NCBI RefSeq assembly: GCF_000189755.2
Contig: NZ_KI912183.1
Location: forward strand, 2,172,257 to 2,236,256
Direction: 5' to 3'
DNA from: Desulfotomaculum nigrificans DSM 574
Lineage (GTDB): Bacteria > Bacillota > Desulfotomaculia > Desulfotomaculales > Desulfotomaculaceae
DNA: 64,000 nucleotides
Shown: positions 2,141 to 63,830 of the stretch, in pieces
Layout of the letters: each line of letters starts with the position of its first letter
Numbering within the stretch: the first letter of the stretch is position 1
Notes under the pieces: generated by a model
What the model saw: only the letters and a program-made list of their open reading frames with translations
Databases searched by the model: none
Told to the model about the DNA's origin: nothing
Made by a program: the position numbers and the translations under genes

Positions 2141-2218
2141 TTCGAAGTTCGAGGTTTCCGGTTCGCGGTTCGACTTTACTTAAACCGAACTCTGAACTAC
2201 GAAAATACGAACATCTAA
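2141..2218. repeat. Heptamer repeat block between atpA and atpG
   Basis: Forward units TTCGAAG, TTCGAGG, TTTCCGG, TTCGCGG, TTCGACT are followed by inverted-sense units built on CGAACT/CGAAAA, so the block is an imperfect inverted repeat. A more diverged member of the family of heptamer elements. Confidence 0.7.
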
Positions 2219-8102: not shown

Positions 8103-8118
8103 GGTGGTTCCTCCGGGG

Positions 8119-8168
8119 GTATTTTTGTGGTCAGCTATTCGCTTTTCGCTATTCGCTATTCGCTTTTA
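8119..8168. repeat. Heptamer repeat arm (TTCGCTN) after the S23-type gene
   Basis: GGGGTATTTTTGTGGTCAGC followed by about five TTCGCTN heptamers. The block runs into the end of the four-helix-bundle gene and supplies its TAG stop. Confidence 0.8.
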
Positions 8169-8551
8169 TAATACCTAGTCTTTCTTTTTCTATTTACCTC
8201 TTGTTTTAATAGCTGAATTAGTTTGTTTATTTGCCTTCCTAAGTGGTCGTACTCATCTTGTAATGCTATGCAGCTTTCTTTATGTATGTATCCTAGATCT
8301 TTAGTCATTTCTAACAGGACAGAAACTTCGTTACAGGAACCCATACCGGTAACAAGAAATTTGGTATAATCAAGGGCATAATTTCTCCTGCCATATCCTT
8401 CTGCTATGTTTAAAGCCACCGATATAGCCGCTCTTCTCAGTTGACTGCCTATTTCGTATAGTTCATGTTTTGGAAAAGTCAGAGAGAGCCTATGGACATC
8501 GAGAGCCAATTTGTATGCTCTTCTGTATATTTCTAAATTACGGTAGCTCAC
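8156..8551 (-). CDS. Four-helix bundle protein (S23/IVP family)
   Basis: 131 residues, mostly helical, with the family pattern [17 protein letters not shown] at the start and [20 protein letters not shown] at about 45-64. Proteins of this family were first found in intervening sequences of 23S rRNA and form pentameric rings; their cellular role is not firmly known. GTG start with a GGAGGGG site. There is no rRNA nearby. The last three codons (Lys-Ser-Glu-stop) are made of heptamer repeat, and a repeat-like arm lies on the other side too, so the gene sits inside a repeat element. Possibly acquired. Confidence 0.88.
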
Positions 8552-13862: not shown

Positions 13863-14357
13863 GATGTCATCTCCATGTATATGTAAGGCTTGACGCCGAT
13901 AGTATATCACAGCCACTTCTTTCCAGTCCAGGGCTTTGGGGTGCTATTCGCTATTCGCTGTTCGCTGTTCGCTTTTTGTCTATGGGGTGTTTCTTTGGGG
14001 TCCTGCTATTGGACTTTGGGGTCGTCCTCTTTGGTCCGGTTGTTGGACTACCGGGTTATTCTCTGGGGTCCAGTTGTTGGTCTATTGGGTATTTCTTTGG
14101 GGTCTTGTTGTTGGCCTTTTCGGTATTTCTCCTGGGTCCTGTAATAGTTTAAGCATTCCTTTAACTCGTTAGGTATTAAGTTGACTCCCGGGTGAATACG
14201 ATTATTTAAGGTGTTCTGGAAGGTGAAGTTATTTATTAATAGTTTACGGGCCAGTATTTGCTGCAAAGTCAAAGCGTGAACGGCGAAAGGCGAATGGCGA
14301 AAGGCGAATAGCGAATGGCTGGACCCGTAAGGAATACCCCGATGGGAGGTTATTCTT
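13863..14357. repeat. Repeat-filled intergenic region with 34-bp units and heptamers
   Basis: 13935-13980 has TTCGCTN heptamers. 13985-14140 holds about four diverged copies of a 34-bp unit of the type GTTGTTGGACT + ATTGGGTATTTCTTTGGGGTC. 14275-14340 has inverse heptamers (GGCGAAAGGCGAATGGCGAA) and the closing word CCGTAAGGAATACC. A 74-codon minus-strand frame at 14048-14272 is partly repeat and has no recognisable content; I see no credible gene. Confidence 0.8.
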
Positions 14358-16083: not shown

Positions 16084-16210
16084 TTGTTCTTTGGGGTATT
16101 TCTTTGTGGTCGGCCTTTGGCTTTTGGCTATTGGCTTTTGGCCTTTAGCTTTAGCGCTAACAGCTAATAGCTAATAGCCAAAAGCTGACCCTTAAGGAAT
16201 ACCCTTAAGC
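16084..16210. repeat. Inverted heptamer element between prfA and prmC
   Basis: GGGGTATTTCTTTGTGGTCGGC followed by TTTGGCT/TTGGCTA units; inverse arm with GCTAATAGCCAAAAGC and CCCTTAAGGAATACCC. Splits the prfA-prmC pair by about 137 bp. Confidence 0.85.
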
Positions 16211-22516: not shown

Positions 22517-23167
22517 TTAAGCCTTACCCGTGAGTTTGCCCCAATCTGCCAGGAAGGCATCTATGCCTTTATCGGTTAAGGGGTGTTTGGTCATTTGCAT
22601 CAGCACTTTGTATGGTACGGTGGCAATGTGGGCGCCGGCTTTGGCTGACTGCAGCACATGCAGCGGGTGGCGAATGCTGGCGGAGATAATTTGGGTTTCC
22701 AGGCCGTAGTTGTCGAAGATTTCTACAATGTCATAGATCAGGCCTATGCCGTCGTGACCGATATCGTCCAACCGGCCCACAAAGGGGCTGACGTAGGTTG
22801 CCCCGGCCCGGGCGGCCAGCAGGGCCTGGTTGGCTGAGAACACCAGGGTTACGTTGGTTTTAATACCCTTTTCGGCACAGGCCCTGGTGGCTTTTAAACC
22901 CTCAGCGGTCATGGGTATTTTAATGACGATATTGGGGTGAATGGCCGACAGTTGCTCGGCCTCTTTAATCATGTCCCCCGCTTCCAGGCTGATGACCTCG
23001 GCGCTGATGGGGCCGTCAACAATGGAGGCTATTTCTTTTACTACCTGGGTAAAATCCCGACCCTCTTTGGCAATCAGGGATGGGTTGGTGGTAACCCCGG
23101 AAATTACGCCCAGGGAGTAGGCAGCTTTAATTTCTTCAATATTGGCCGTGTCGATGAAGAGCAGCAT
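22517..23167 (-). CDS. fsa: Transaldolase-like protein / fructose-6-phosphate aldolase
   Basis: 216 residues from the ATG at 23167 after an AGGAGGGT site; the longer frame reads through repeat DNA. Short transaldolase family: [13 protein letters not shown] at the start, [13 protein letters not shown], the Schiff-base lysine in IVIKIPMT (about residue 83) and [13 protein letters not shown]. It transfers or cleaves dihydroxyacetone units from fructose 6-phosphate; sequence does not separate aldolase from transaldolase activity. Adjacent fba fits central sugar metabolism. Same place as tal/ywjH in Bacillus. Confidence 0.93.
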
Positions 23168-23199
23168 GGTGAACCCTCCTTGCCTATTCTGTTTTTCTT

Positions 23200-23617
23200 T
23201 GGGGTCCTGTATGTGAGGTAATCCTCTTTGGTCCTGTTGTTGGACTATTGGGTCATCCTCCGGGGTCATGTTGTTAGACTACCGGGTCATCCTCCGGGGT
23301 CATGTTGTTAGACTACTGGGTCATCCTCTGGGGTCATGTTGTTAGACTACTGGGTCATCCTCCGGGGTCATGTTGTTAGACTACTGGGTCATCCTCTGGG
23401 GTCATGTTGTTAGTATGAAAGCATTCCTCGCGGGTCTGGGAAGGTTACTCTGGTACAAACTACTAGACCTGAAAGGAATGCCCTTAAATCTAACAACAGG
23501 ACCCATAAGAAATACCCTTAAGTCTAACAACAGGACCCTTAAGAAATACCCTCAAGTCTAACAACTAGACCCTAAAGGAATACCCTTAAGGCTAACAACT
23601 GGACCCTTAAGTCCAGC
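23200..23617. repeat. Head-to-head arrays of a 34-bp tandem repeat
   Basis: Six copies of a 34-bp unit beginning GTTGTTAGACT at exact 34-bp steps (23236, 23270, 23304, 23338, 23372, 23406), then about 75 bp, then four inverse copies beginning TAACAAC at 23491, 23525, 23559 and 23593. The forward copies read ACTGGGTCATCCTCCGGGGTC, cut here to the key words GGGTCATCC and GGGGTC; the inverse copies carry CCCTTAAGAAATACCC. No unique spacers are present. Confidence 0.93.
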
Positions 23618-24472
23618 CTACGCTTTTCCCGCGCTGCCGAATACTCTTATTTTCTCACGAATTACCTGGGTGGCGGCTTCTCTGGCGGGGCCTAAAACCT
23701 TTCTGGGGTCGATTTCTTTGGGGTTTTTGCCCAGTACTTCACGGCAGGTGTTGGTGAAGGCCTCGCGGATGTTGGTGTCGATATTTACTTTACGTACGCC
23801 CAGGCGGATAGCTTCTTGAATCGCTTCATCAGGAACGCCGGAAGAACCGTGCAACACCAGGGGAATCTTAACCAGTTGGGCAATTTTCTCCAGGCGGGGG
23901 AAATCCAGCTTGGGTATCCCTTTGTATTGGCCGTGGGCGGTGCCGACAGAGGGAGCCAGGGCGTCAACGCCGGTCTTCTCTACAAAATACCTGGCCTCTT
24001 CGGGATCAGTGAAAAAGGCCTCTTTTTCGTCAACATGAATATCATCTTCGGTTCCACCGATTTTACCCAGTTCGGCTTCCACGGAAACACCGGTGGCCCG
24101 GGCAACTTCCAGTACTTTGTTGGTCAGGGCAATGTTTTCTTCCAGGGGTAGTTTGGAACCGTCAATCATTACGGAAGTAAAACCAACCCGGATACATTTC
24201 ATGCACTGTTCAAAACTGGTCCCATGGTCCAGGTGCAGGGCCACCGGTACGGTGGCCTGGCTGGCGGCTAAGCTGGCCAGGGTGTAGATGTATTCAATAC
24301 CGGCATACTTTATGGCCCCCTGGCTGGCCTGCATGATTACCGGTGCCCTTTCGGCTTCGGCGGCAGCTAAAATAGCTTGCACGATTTCCATGTTGTTAAC
24401 GTTGAAGGCACCTACAGCGTATTTCCCTTCCTCAGCTTTTTTCAATAATTCTTTCACGGGAACTAATGGCAT
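23618..24472 (-). CDS. fba: Fructose-bisphosphate aldolase class II
   Basis: Zinc aldolase that splits fructose 1,6-bisphosphate. 284 residues. Zinc-binding histidines appear in VALHLDHGTSFEQC (about 77-90) and in GTAHGQYKG and VLHGSSGVPDE (His near 178 and 206). AAGGAGGG site before the ATG. Order fsa-fba-spo0F-pyrG is the ancestral Firmicute arrangement; here a zinc-ribbon gene has entered between fba and spo0F. Confidence 0.97.
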   Translation of the reverse strand: MPLVPVKELLKKAEEGKYAVGAFNVNNMEIVQAILAAAEAERAPVIMQASQGAIKYAGIEYIYTLASLAASQATVPVALHLDHGTSFEQCMKCIRVGFTSVMIDGSKLPLEENIALTNKVLEVARATGVSVEAELGKIGGTEDDIHVDEKEAFFTDPEEARYFVEKTGVDALAPSVGTAHGQYKGIPKLDFPRLEKIAQLVKIPLVLHGSSGVPDEAIQEAIRLGVRKVNIDTNIREAFTNTCREVLGKNPKEIDPRKVLGPAREAATQVIREKIRVFGSAGKA

Positions 24473-40698: not shown

Positions 40699-41136
40699 CC
40701 TACCGTCCTCCTGTTCTACTTTTTCTTCAGGGCATTGCTTTGGGGTCAGCTGTTCGCTGTTCGTTTTTCGCTGTTCGCCTTTGTGGTATTCCTTTGGGGT
40801 CCTGTTGTTGGACTCTTTGGTATTTCTTTGGGGTCTTGTTGTTGGACTCTGGGGTATTTTCTTTGCTGTCTTGTTGTTGGATTCTTAGGTATTTCTTTGG
40901 GGTCTTGTTGTCTTTTTTTGGAATACCTGCTTGCTCCCCTTTGGTTTGCTGTAATCATACTTTGGGCCTGCTTTTTCTGCCTGTTCTTCTTCCGTGCTGC
41001 TTTGCTGCCTTGCTTCCGTCCTGCATATCACCTCCAGGCAATATTGCGGCTTTATTTCTATTCTATATATCTATGTCATTTCCTGCTCCTAATTGACAGA
41101 TATTTTTGCCACTTCAATAATTTAATCATTTATTTA
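40699..41136. repeat. 34-bp repeat array and spacer between symporter and aminotransferase
   Basis: 40735-40795 has TTCGCTG/TTCGTTT heptamers; 40797-40925 has about four 34-bp units starting GTTGTTGGACTC with GGTATTTCTTTGGGGTC. The remainder, 40926-41136, is unique AT-rich DNA with a possible 23-codon basic frame on the minus strand after GGAGGTGAT (see findings). No inverse array is present here, so the element is one-sided. Confidence 0.8.
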
Positions 41137-42815: not shown

Positions 42816-43055
42816 CTAAAATAAAAAACCCCCGCCCGTAAGGGACGGAGGTTTCGCATCCGTGGTACCACCCTAATTGGCTGCACCGGTGAATTAGCGC
42901 AACCCGCTTGGGCTTCTTTAACGGTGAAGAACCGGCCAAGCTTACTTTTTTCGGCTGGCAACTCGGGGGCGGCCCGGTAGTCTCCTTGGCCGGCTTGCAC
43001 CTGACCCGGCTCGCTGCACAATTATGATCTACCTTCTTCCCCGTCATTGAATTGG
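42816..43055 (-). promoter_or_regulatory. T-box leader with terminator/antiterminator
   Basis: The conserved T-box AGGGTGGTACCACGG (within 42860-42874) precedes a terminator (CCTCCGTCC paired with GGGCGGGGG, then TTTTTTATTTT). Upstream is a stem I with a CGGGG/CCCCG base, a GGTAG/CTACC helix and a CCGGGTCAGGTGCAAGCCGG loop. Uncharged tRNA would stabilise the antiterminator. The specifier codon is not certain: the region CTACCGGGCCGCC could present GCC (Ala), UAC (Tyr) or another triplet. Confidence 0.9.
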
Positions 43056-43111
43056 ACAGTTTTTAATTTTGATTTTTCTCATTTTAGCATTAGTGTGGTA
43101 GGAATGTCAAT

Positions 43112-63734: not shown

Positions 63735-63830
63735 TTATCAGCAACCGGCTGTCATGGTTTATTTAAACTTTAGACCCCGGCTTTGCGTCCTTGCCTTTCG
63801 ACAAGTTTGCCCTTTTTAACTCAGATATTC
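63735..63830 (-). promoter_or_regulatory. Cyclic di-GMP class I (GEMM-I) riboswitch aptamer
   Basis: On the minus strand the conserved order GGGCAAAC, GTCGAAAGGC (P2 with GAAA loop), GGACGCAAAGCC, GGGTCTAAAG, ACCATGACAGCC and GGTTGC matches the GEMM-I consensus, including the tetraloop and the receptor region. The 3' strand GGTTGC can also pair with GCAAC in the terminator, so the two structures probably exclude each other; from this the ligand would favour termination (inference). Aptamer begins about 40 bp after the EAL gene stop. Confidence 0.93.

Follow-up and report, generated by a model that had tools for sequence, protein, structure and literature searches.

The closest described system is the IVS of 23S rRNA that carries an S23p/IVP open reading frame (PF05635, TIGR02436). 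The elements described below share with it inverted arms of 7-mers around an IVP gene. The Coxiella IVS contains tandem heptameric repeats in variable number and is cleaved by RNase III in its stem, according to the accessible part of PMC4990558. The same part reports ideas from 1990-1993 that rRNA IVS are remnants of transposition, or else mobile elements with an open reading frame that aids their mobility. The locus studied here, between the genes fsa and fba, has the stem of inverted arms. It differs from an IVS in that it lies between protein genes and not in 23S rRNA, has no open reading frame (thus no PF05635 frame in the loop), and is built of 34-bp units.

Other intergenic repeats resemble it in part. 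REP/REPIN-RAYT systems comprise many intergenic palindromes of paired short repeats, which is the point of likeness, whereas the units differ. BrickBuilt of Porphyromonas gingivalis is a MITE containing a minisatellite (PMC4596501). As far as the accessible part of that paper goes, it is similarly dispersed, intergenic and MITE-like, with an internal variable tandem array and inverted-repeat ends, but its 23-nt units run in one direction between a leader and a tail, and no link to IVP is found there (PMC4596501). The heptamer-derived bacterial satellites are likewise short-period intergenic tandem arrays, with neither inverted pairing nor a protein partner described in the accessible text (PMC6749651). 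A literature search conducted mostly outside subscription journals found no paper that links PF05635 to dispersed hairpins or to target duplications.

The facing arrays between fsa and fba

The window is the whole stretch of 64,000 nucleotides analysed here, G000:C1:2172257-2236256, G000 being the genome that holds it (3,052,787 bp). The features at the locus are as follows.

22517-23167, minus strand: fsa, fructose-6-phosphate aldolase (TIGR00875)
23189-23215, plus strand: outermost unit, degenerate and cut after 27 bp (21.0 bits)
23216-23419, plus strand: left array, six 34-bp units, each starting exactly 34 bp after the previous one
23420-23449, no strand: 30-bp spacer separating the left and right arrays
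23450-23619, minus strand: right array, composed of five inverse 34-bp units with a weak one at each end
23618-24472, minus strand: fba, class II fructose-bisphosphate aldolase, the stop codon of which overlaps the final base pairs of the array

The array thus extends from just upstream of the ribosome-binding site of fsa to the stop codon of fba, and the gap has no gene of its own. A previous reading of this DNA, made from the sequence only, described six forward copies at exact 34-bp steps. These are borne out, with starts at 23216, 23250, 23284, 23318, 23352 and 23386, and the degenerate seventh at 23189 is added to them. The same sequence-only reading placed four inverse copies across a short spacer. 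Their inverse orientation and the spacer of 30 bp are correct, but there are five copies and not four, starting at 23450, 23484, 23518, 23552 and 23586, with the two outer units weaker than the rest.

Each unit consists of an 18-bp core, GGGTATTYCTYWDGGGTC, and a variable 16-bp tail. The pattern of the array is far beyond chance: with up to two mismatches, the core pattern has 31 matches in the window, and shuffled sequences have a mean of 0.14 and a largest value of 2. The two arms use different consensus words, GGGTCATCC in the left and GGGTATTTC in the right. The mean identity between units is 0.766 left-left and 0.715 right-right, versus 0.620 left-right, in agreement with the previous proposal that the two arrays were homogenised separately. 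A CRISPR array is ruled out, as had also been concluded, because the units follow head-to-tail at exact 34-bp steps with no unique spacers.

At the array itself, no Rfam family reaches its gathering score. Elsewhere in the window, on the minus strand, Rfam identifies a T-box leader (RF00230, 100.4 bits) at 42838-43056 and a c-di-GMP-I riboswitch (RF01051, 77.5 bits) at 63737-63821.

A dispersed family of head-to-head elements

The unit had been reported at two further places in the window, 13985-14140 and 40797-40925, and both are recovered, now placed at 13980-14142 and 40784-40911. The previous interpretation holds as regards the recurrence of the unit, the difference between the arms and the rejection of CRISPR. 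It was incomplete in that the unit holds the core of a palindromic family found across the genome. Three further members illustrate its range.

13943-14339, no strand: composite element, a 7-mer arm and five 34-bp units, followed by 7-mers and a single core in inverse orientation
16094-16204, no strand: compact example, core and 7-mers versus facing inverse 7-mers and core
40730-40920, plus strand: core, 7-mers and four 34-bp units; an inverse core unit was not found

Allowing at most one mismatch, the core is matched 111 times in G000, and the pattern read backwards not once. The corresponding counts are 51 in G001, 34 in each of G004 and G009, 29 in G010 and 63 in G036. At least one match is present in 28 of the 60 genomes overall, many of these being single matches that may be due to chance.

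Units were sampled from the window and from 27 of the 30 stretches that had been retrieved by position (L018, L019 and L029 were left out), the clusters being chosen by similarity to the fsa-fba array. The sample contains 182 units in 52 clusters. Both strands are represented in 36 clusters, and all 36 have the same head-to-head arrangement, with plus units to the left of minus units. The identity between left and right arms is 0.596 within the same element and 0.594 between different elements. This equality gives no support to a recent inverted duplication, or to a hairpin-templated correction that keeps the arms alike.

Many of the core elements carry a second module, consisting of tandem 7-mers in the arms. 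In the window there are 26 runs of period 7 above threshold, whereas each of seven other periods yields 0 to 3. Most of the period-7 runs (23) are intergenic, and the other three were judged to lie within the ends of spurious open reading frames. The association extends beyond the genus, where a strong 7-mer run is found near 15 of 36 core loci versus 3 of 71 control positions. At L176, L178, L179, L182 and L188 (in G036 and G010), the core was seen by eye to adjoin CAGGATT-type repeats of another period.

Gaps with a hairpin are flanked by same-strand gene pairs in 36 cases out of 42, by convergent pairs in 4 and by divergent pairs in 2, and the 48 gaps lacking a hairpin by 45, 0 and 3, respectively; these numbers are too small to use. 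A preference of hairpins for convergent genes (4/42 vs 0/48) is accordingly set aside, there being too few gaps.

The elements have several features of a MITE, being short, dispersed, mostly intergenic and devoid of a transposase open reading frame. Terminal inverted repeats are represented by the inward core at both ends, whose consensuses agree, the exact ends being unclear. We call them MITE-like, because no target duplications were seen: among 58 core-ended elements, whose exact ends are unclear, none was detected, the best offset having 13 and permutations 10 to 16.

IVP genes and inserting elements of similar build

The window also contains an IVP gene, which is the single PF05635 match in G000.

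8115-8167, plus strand: left arm of the IVP gene, a weak core-like stretch (10.8 bits) and 7-mers
8156-8551, minus strand: IVP gene, four-helix-bundle protein (PF05635, TIGR02436), 131 aa
8570-8598, minus strand: right arm, inverted to the left arm and poor in the 7-mer period

In the genus there are 17 PF05635 matches, in five of nine genomes. Twelve of these are inside 23S rRNA, six as identified by Rfam and six by near-identical flanks. One gap of G008 has arms around a gene that scores 114.7 bits to PF05635. The genome G004 has core elements, yet PF05635 finds no match in it, and 80 kb of its sequence contain no 7-mer run. Weak PF05635 matches at L086 and L098 lie beside RT-14 RNAs and do not have inverted 7-mer arms. 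Their neighbourhood suggests diversity-generating retroelements, of which they are probably the Avd genes.

Inverted arms are present at most of the IVP loci tested. For the genus and order, 35 of 43 loci were used, the near-identical 23S copies L087-L089, L091 and L093-L096 being left out, with some residual redundancy (for example L082 and L092). Inverted arms scoring at least 26 are present at 32 of the 35, and the maximum in 32 shifted controls is 22. Mean run scores for the same loci are 13.5 at lag 7 and 11.3 at lag 14, and lie between 4.0 and 5.1 for other lags. Because 7-mer arrays are common in these genomes, strong runs occur in part of the control stretches too: in the order set, six of 64 score 13.5 or more. 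Among 29 further loci from the phylum, 26 have an arm score of at least 26; a single control out of 28 reaches it. Visual inspection assigns 7-mer arms to 22 of the 29 loci, 11-nt repeats to two, short arms of 7-8 nt to another two and no arms to three. The IVP genes at L147 and L150 have arms of 11-nt repeats, with about five units per arm in L147 and more in L150. A sample of eight genomes with IVP genes, taken from the order and the phylum, shows few dispersed 7-mer runs.

The 7-mer letters follow the identity of the IVP protein among close relatives only. A code between the protein and the letters was considered and rejected: there is a correlation over all pairs, and none below 55% protein identity. 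The left arm of the IVP gene in G000 is matched at 46 or more places of that genome, counting the arm itself, and at one place in G008; G001, G004, G006, G016 and G040 lack any match. Likewise, the G008 IVP arm has at least 40 matches in G008, 11 weak ones in G001, and none in the five other genomes compared. The large own-genome counts are lower bounds, because about 40 candidates were scored per genome, and two arm matches may belong to one element. On this sequence evidence, many gene-less hairpins carry the arm letters of their own genome's IVP gene in the two genomes tested.

Elements of similar build are found in genomes of another family in the order. In G050, an IVP element with GTWACTAYTCAGG ends was located at no fewer than 20 contig ends, next to flanking sequence that is unique. 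It has a sharp boundary at GTTACTACTCAGG on the side of the gene end, and a GTAACTATTCAGG boundary on the opposite side at six contig ends. No full G050 copy with these ends is assembled, because the contigs stop within the gene. In G090, an element of 270-370 bp that includes an IVP fragment is present in about nine copies. A search of the fetched loci for exact ends produced 9 complete elements, all distinct, in G050, G090 and relatives; seven of the nine have no stop-free stretch over 61 codons. In six of the nine, 7 or 8 of the 8 flanking bases are duplicated, compared to one of 72 cross-pairs. Mean flank identity for the nine reaches 0.78 when the width is 8, and lies between 0.37 and 0.49 for six other widths. 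For G090 alone, with looser ends, duplications are seen in 4 of 7 cases versus 0 of 42 cross-pairs. Head-to-head pairing of exact ends is seen at 8 sites of G050 and at 23 of G090, and tail-to-tail pairing at none; in G090, one neighbouring pair lies on the same strand. The flanks indicate that these IVP elements insert as units, with 8-bp target duplications.

Members of the PF05635 family thus occur away from rRNA, within elements that are present in many copies, have inverted ends and are flanked by 8-bp target duplications. This, together with the own-genome arm letters of the gene-less hairpins, makes both the mobility of the elements and the function of the IVP protein directly testable. 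A class of bacterial intergenic repeats is thereby given a family, in place of a listing as unrelated satellites.

Origin and turnover of the array

Our preferred reading, held with moderate confidence, is that the fsa-fba array belongs to a dispersed, intergenic, palindromic and MITE-like family that is kin to the PF05635 IVP elements, and that its arms were multiplied by local tandem duplication. An element of this family would have an inward 18-bp core at both ends, and often arms of short tandem repeats. At fsa-fba, the core with its 16-bp tail (34 bp) would have been multiplied locally within each arm, as suggested by the arm-specific variants. Because the layout is the same, and because in two genomes the arm letters are those of the genome's own IVP element, the family is probably kin to the IVP elements. 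Several observations go against this reading: an IVP gene is absent from the fsa-fba element, the IVP gene of the window has a weak core-like stretch beside it, the 58 core-ended elements showed no target duplication, G004 combines core elements with a lack of PF05635 matches and of 7-mer runs, and dispersed 7-mer hairpins are few in most of the IVP genomes sampled. Copies in Desulforamulus may have spread in the same way as the inserting IVP elements of the other family, with the IVP protein acting in trans on the arms.

We know of no catalytic role for IVP, and it may be a passenger in the elements. A more speculative proposal, which we regard as tentative, is that IVP pentamers are the trans-acting factors of widespread tiny DNA elements, docking on arms of five repeats with one repeat per subunit, and that the fsa-fba array descends from such an element by amplification of the end core. 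S23p of Xanthomonas is described as a homopentamer in the accessible part of PMC4990558, and PDB entries 2gsc and 2rld have five chains each, the match to 2rld being weak (E 0.82). Docking of a pentamer would explain why five is the commonest number of repeats, both in distinct IVP-gene arms (52 of 95; next is six, with 12) and in the 7-mer runs of stretches from four Desulforamulus genomes (41 of 86; next is four, with 17). It would also explain the five-unit arms of 11-nt repeats at L147, and a trans-acting IVP would account for the own-genome letters in gene-less hairpins.

The strongest rival explanation is that these are ordinary MITEs moved by some DDE transposase, the IVP gene having been trapped between the ends as a passenger. 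Insertion sequences typically have inverted ends and 8-bp duplications, and both were seen in the elements of G050, G090 and relatives; draft genomes may moreover miss a transposase. IS66, the one transposase family searched (in six genomes), is present in G000, G008, G090 and G022, but has a single sub-threshold match in G050 and none in G058, so that IS66 as the mover is unsupported in the latter two. With that one family searched, IVP is the only gene found with arms of this kind and the sole gene found between such ends. Against this explanation, the genes lying in two wider G090 spans between ends are housekeeping-like, by our reading only. We consider this explanation possible and rather doubtful.

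An effect at the RNA level, in which the palindrome is kept as a hairpin in the fba-fsa mRNA that processes or stabilises the transcript, appears improbable. The gap does lie between two same-strand genes, and the array strand folds far better than shuffled sequences, as RNA (z -12.3) and also as DNA (z -7.5). RNase III cuts the stems of IVS in rRNA, in the accessible account (PMC4990558). Against this, the 36 of 42 hairpins that lie between same-strand genes show no wobble bias, with 95 transitions that keep a G-U pair and 116 that break one (P 0.17), which leaves RNA-level selection without support. In addition, the arms of one element are no more alike than those of different elements, and the gap is free of such elements in three of the eight congeners. 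Least probable of all is a plain satellite or VNTR that arose by local slippage without mobility: same-arm units are somewhat more alike than units of different elements (P 0.019) and the number of 7-mers differs between near-identical G050 copies, but the units are dispersed to 52 sampled clusters in a strictly head-to-head manner, and the core is found in more than one bacterial family.

The preferred reading, of a dispersed family with IVP kinship, can be set beside the fba-fsa gap of other species. A comparison of the units between genomes had been suggested by the sequence-only reading. Run here between species, with one genome for each, it finds the core in all eight congeners and a gap that varies both in the presence of an element and in its modules. 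Judged by eye, four congeners have other modules: a hairpin of core and 7-mers in G001, a short element of the 34-bp type in G004, a short hairpin with like letters in G006 and a 7-mer hairpin in G008. G007 is unclear, with a short core-like stretch beside a broken reading of fsa, and no element was seen in G002, G003 or G005. Similar turnover of modules between species occurs at other gaps.

Three rRNA-linked loci likewise have elements in the 23S-5S spacer, and the only one of them to include the 16S-23S spacer has an element there too. In the fourth rRNA locus, a partial one, the 7-mers take up about 35 bases more than in the other three. L017, L018, L019 and L029 were rejected as independent insertions, being near-identical rRNA-linked copies. 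At 1450-1826 of L029 there is a partial and apparently broken rRNA locus, in which the 3' end of 23S is joined to an internal 16S fragment (RF00177 positions 1041-1198). Finally, window positions 2141-2172 hold a TTCGA-type 7-mer arm resembling the 23S IVS arm of G003, G006 and G008, and similar stretches are present in the orthologous gap of G001, G006 and G008.
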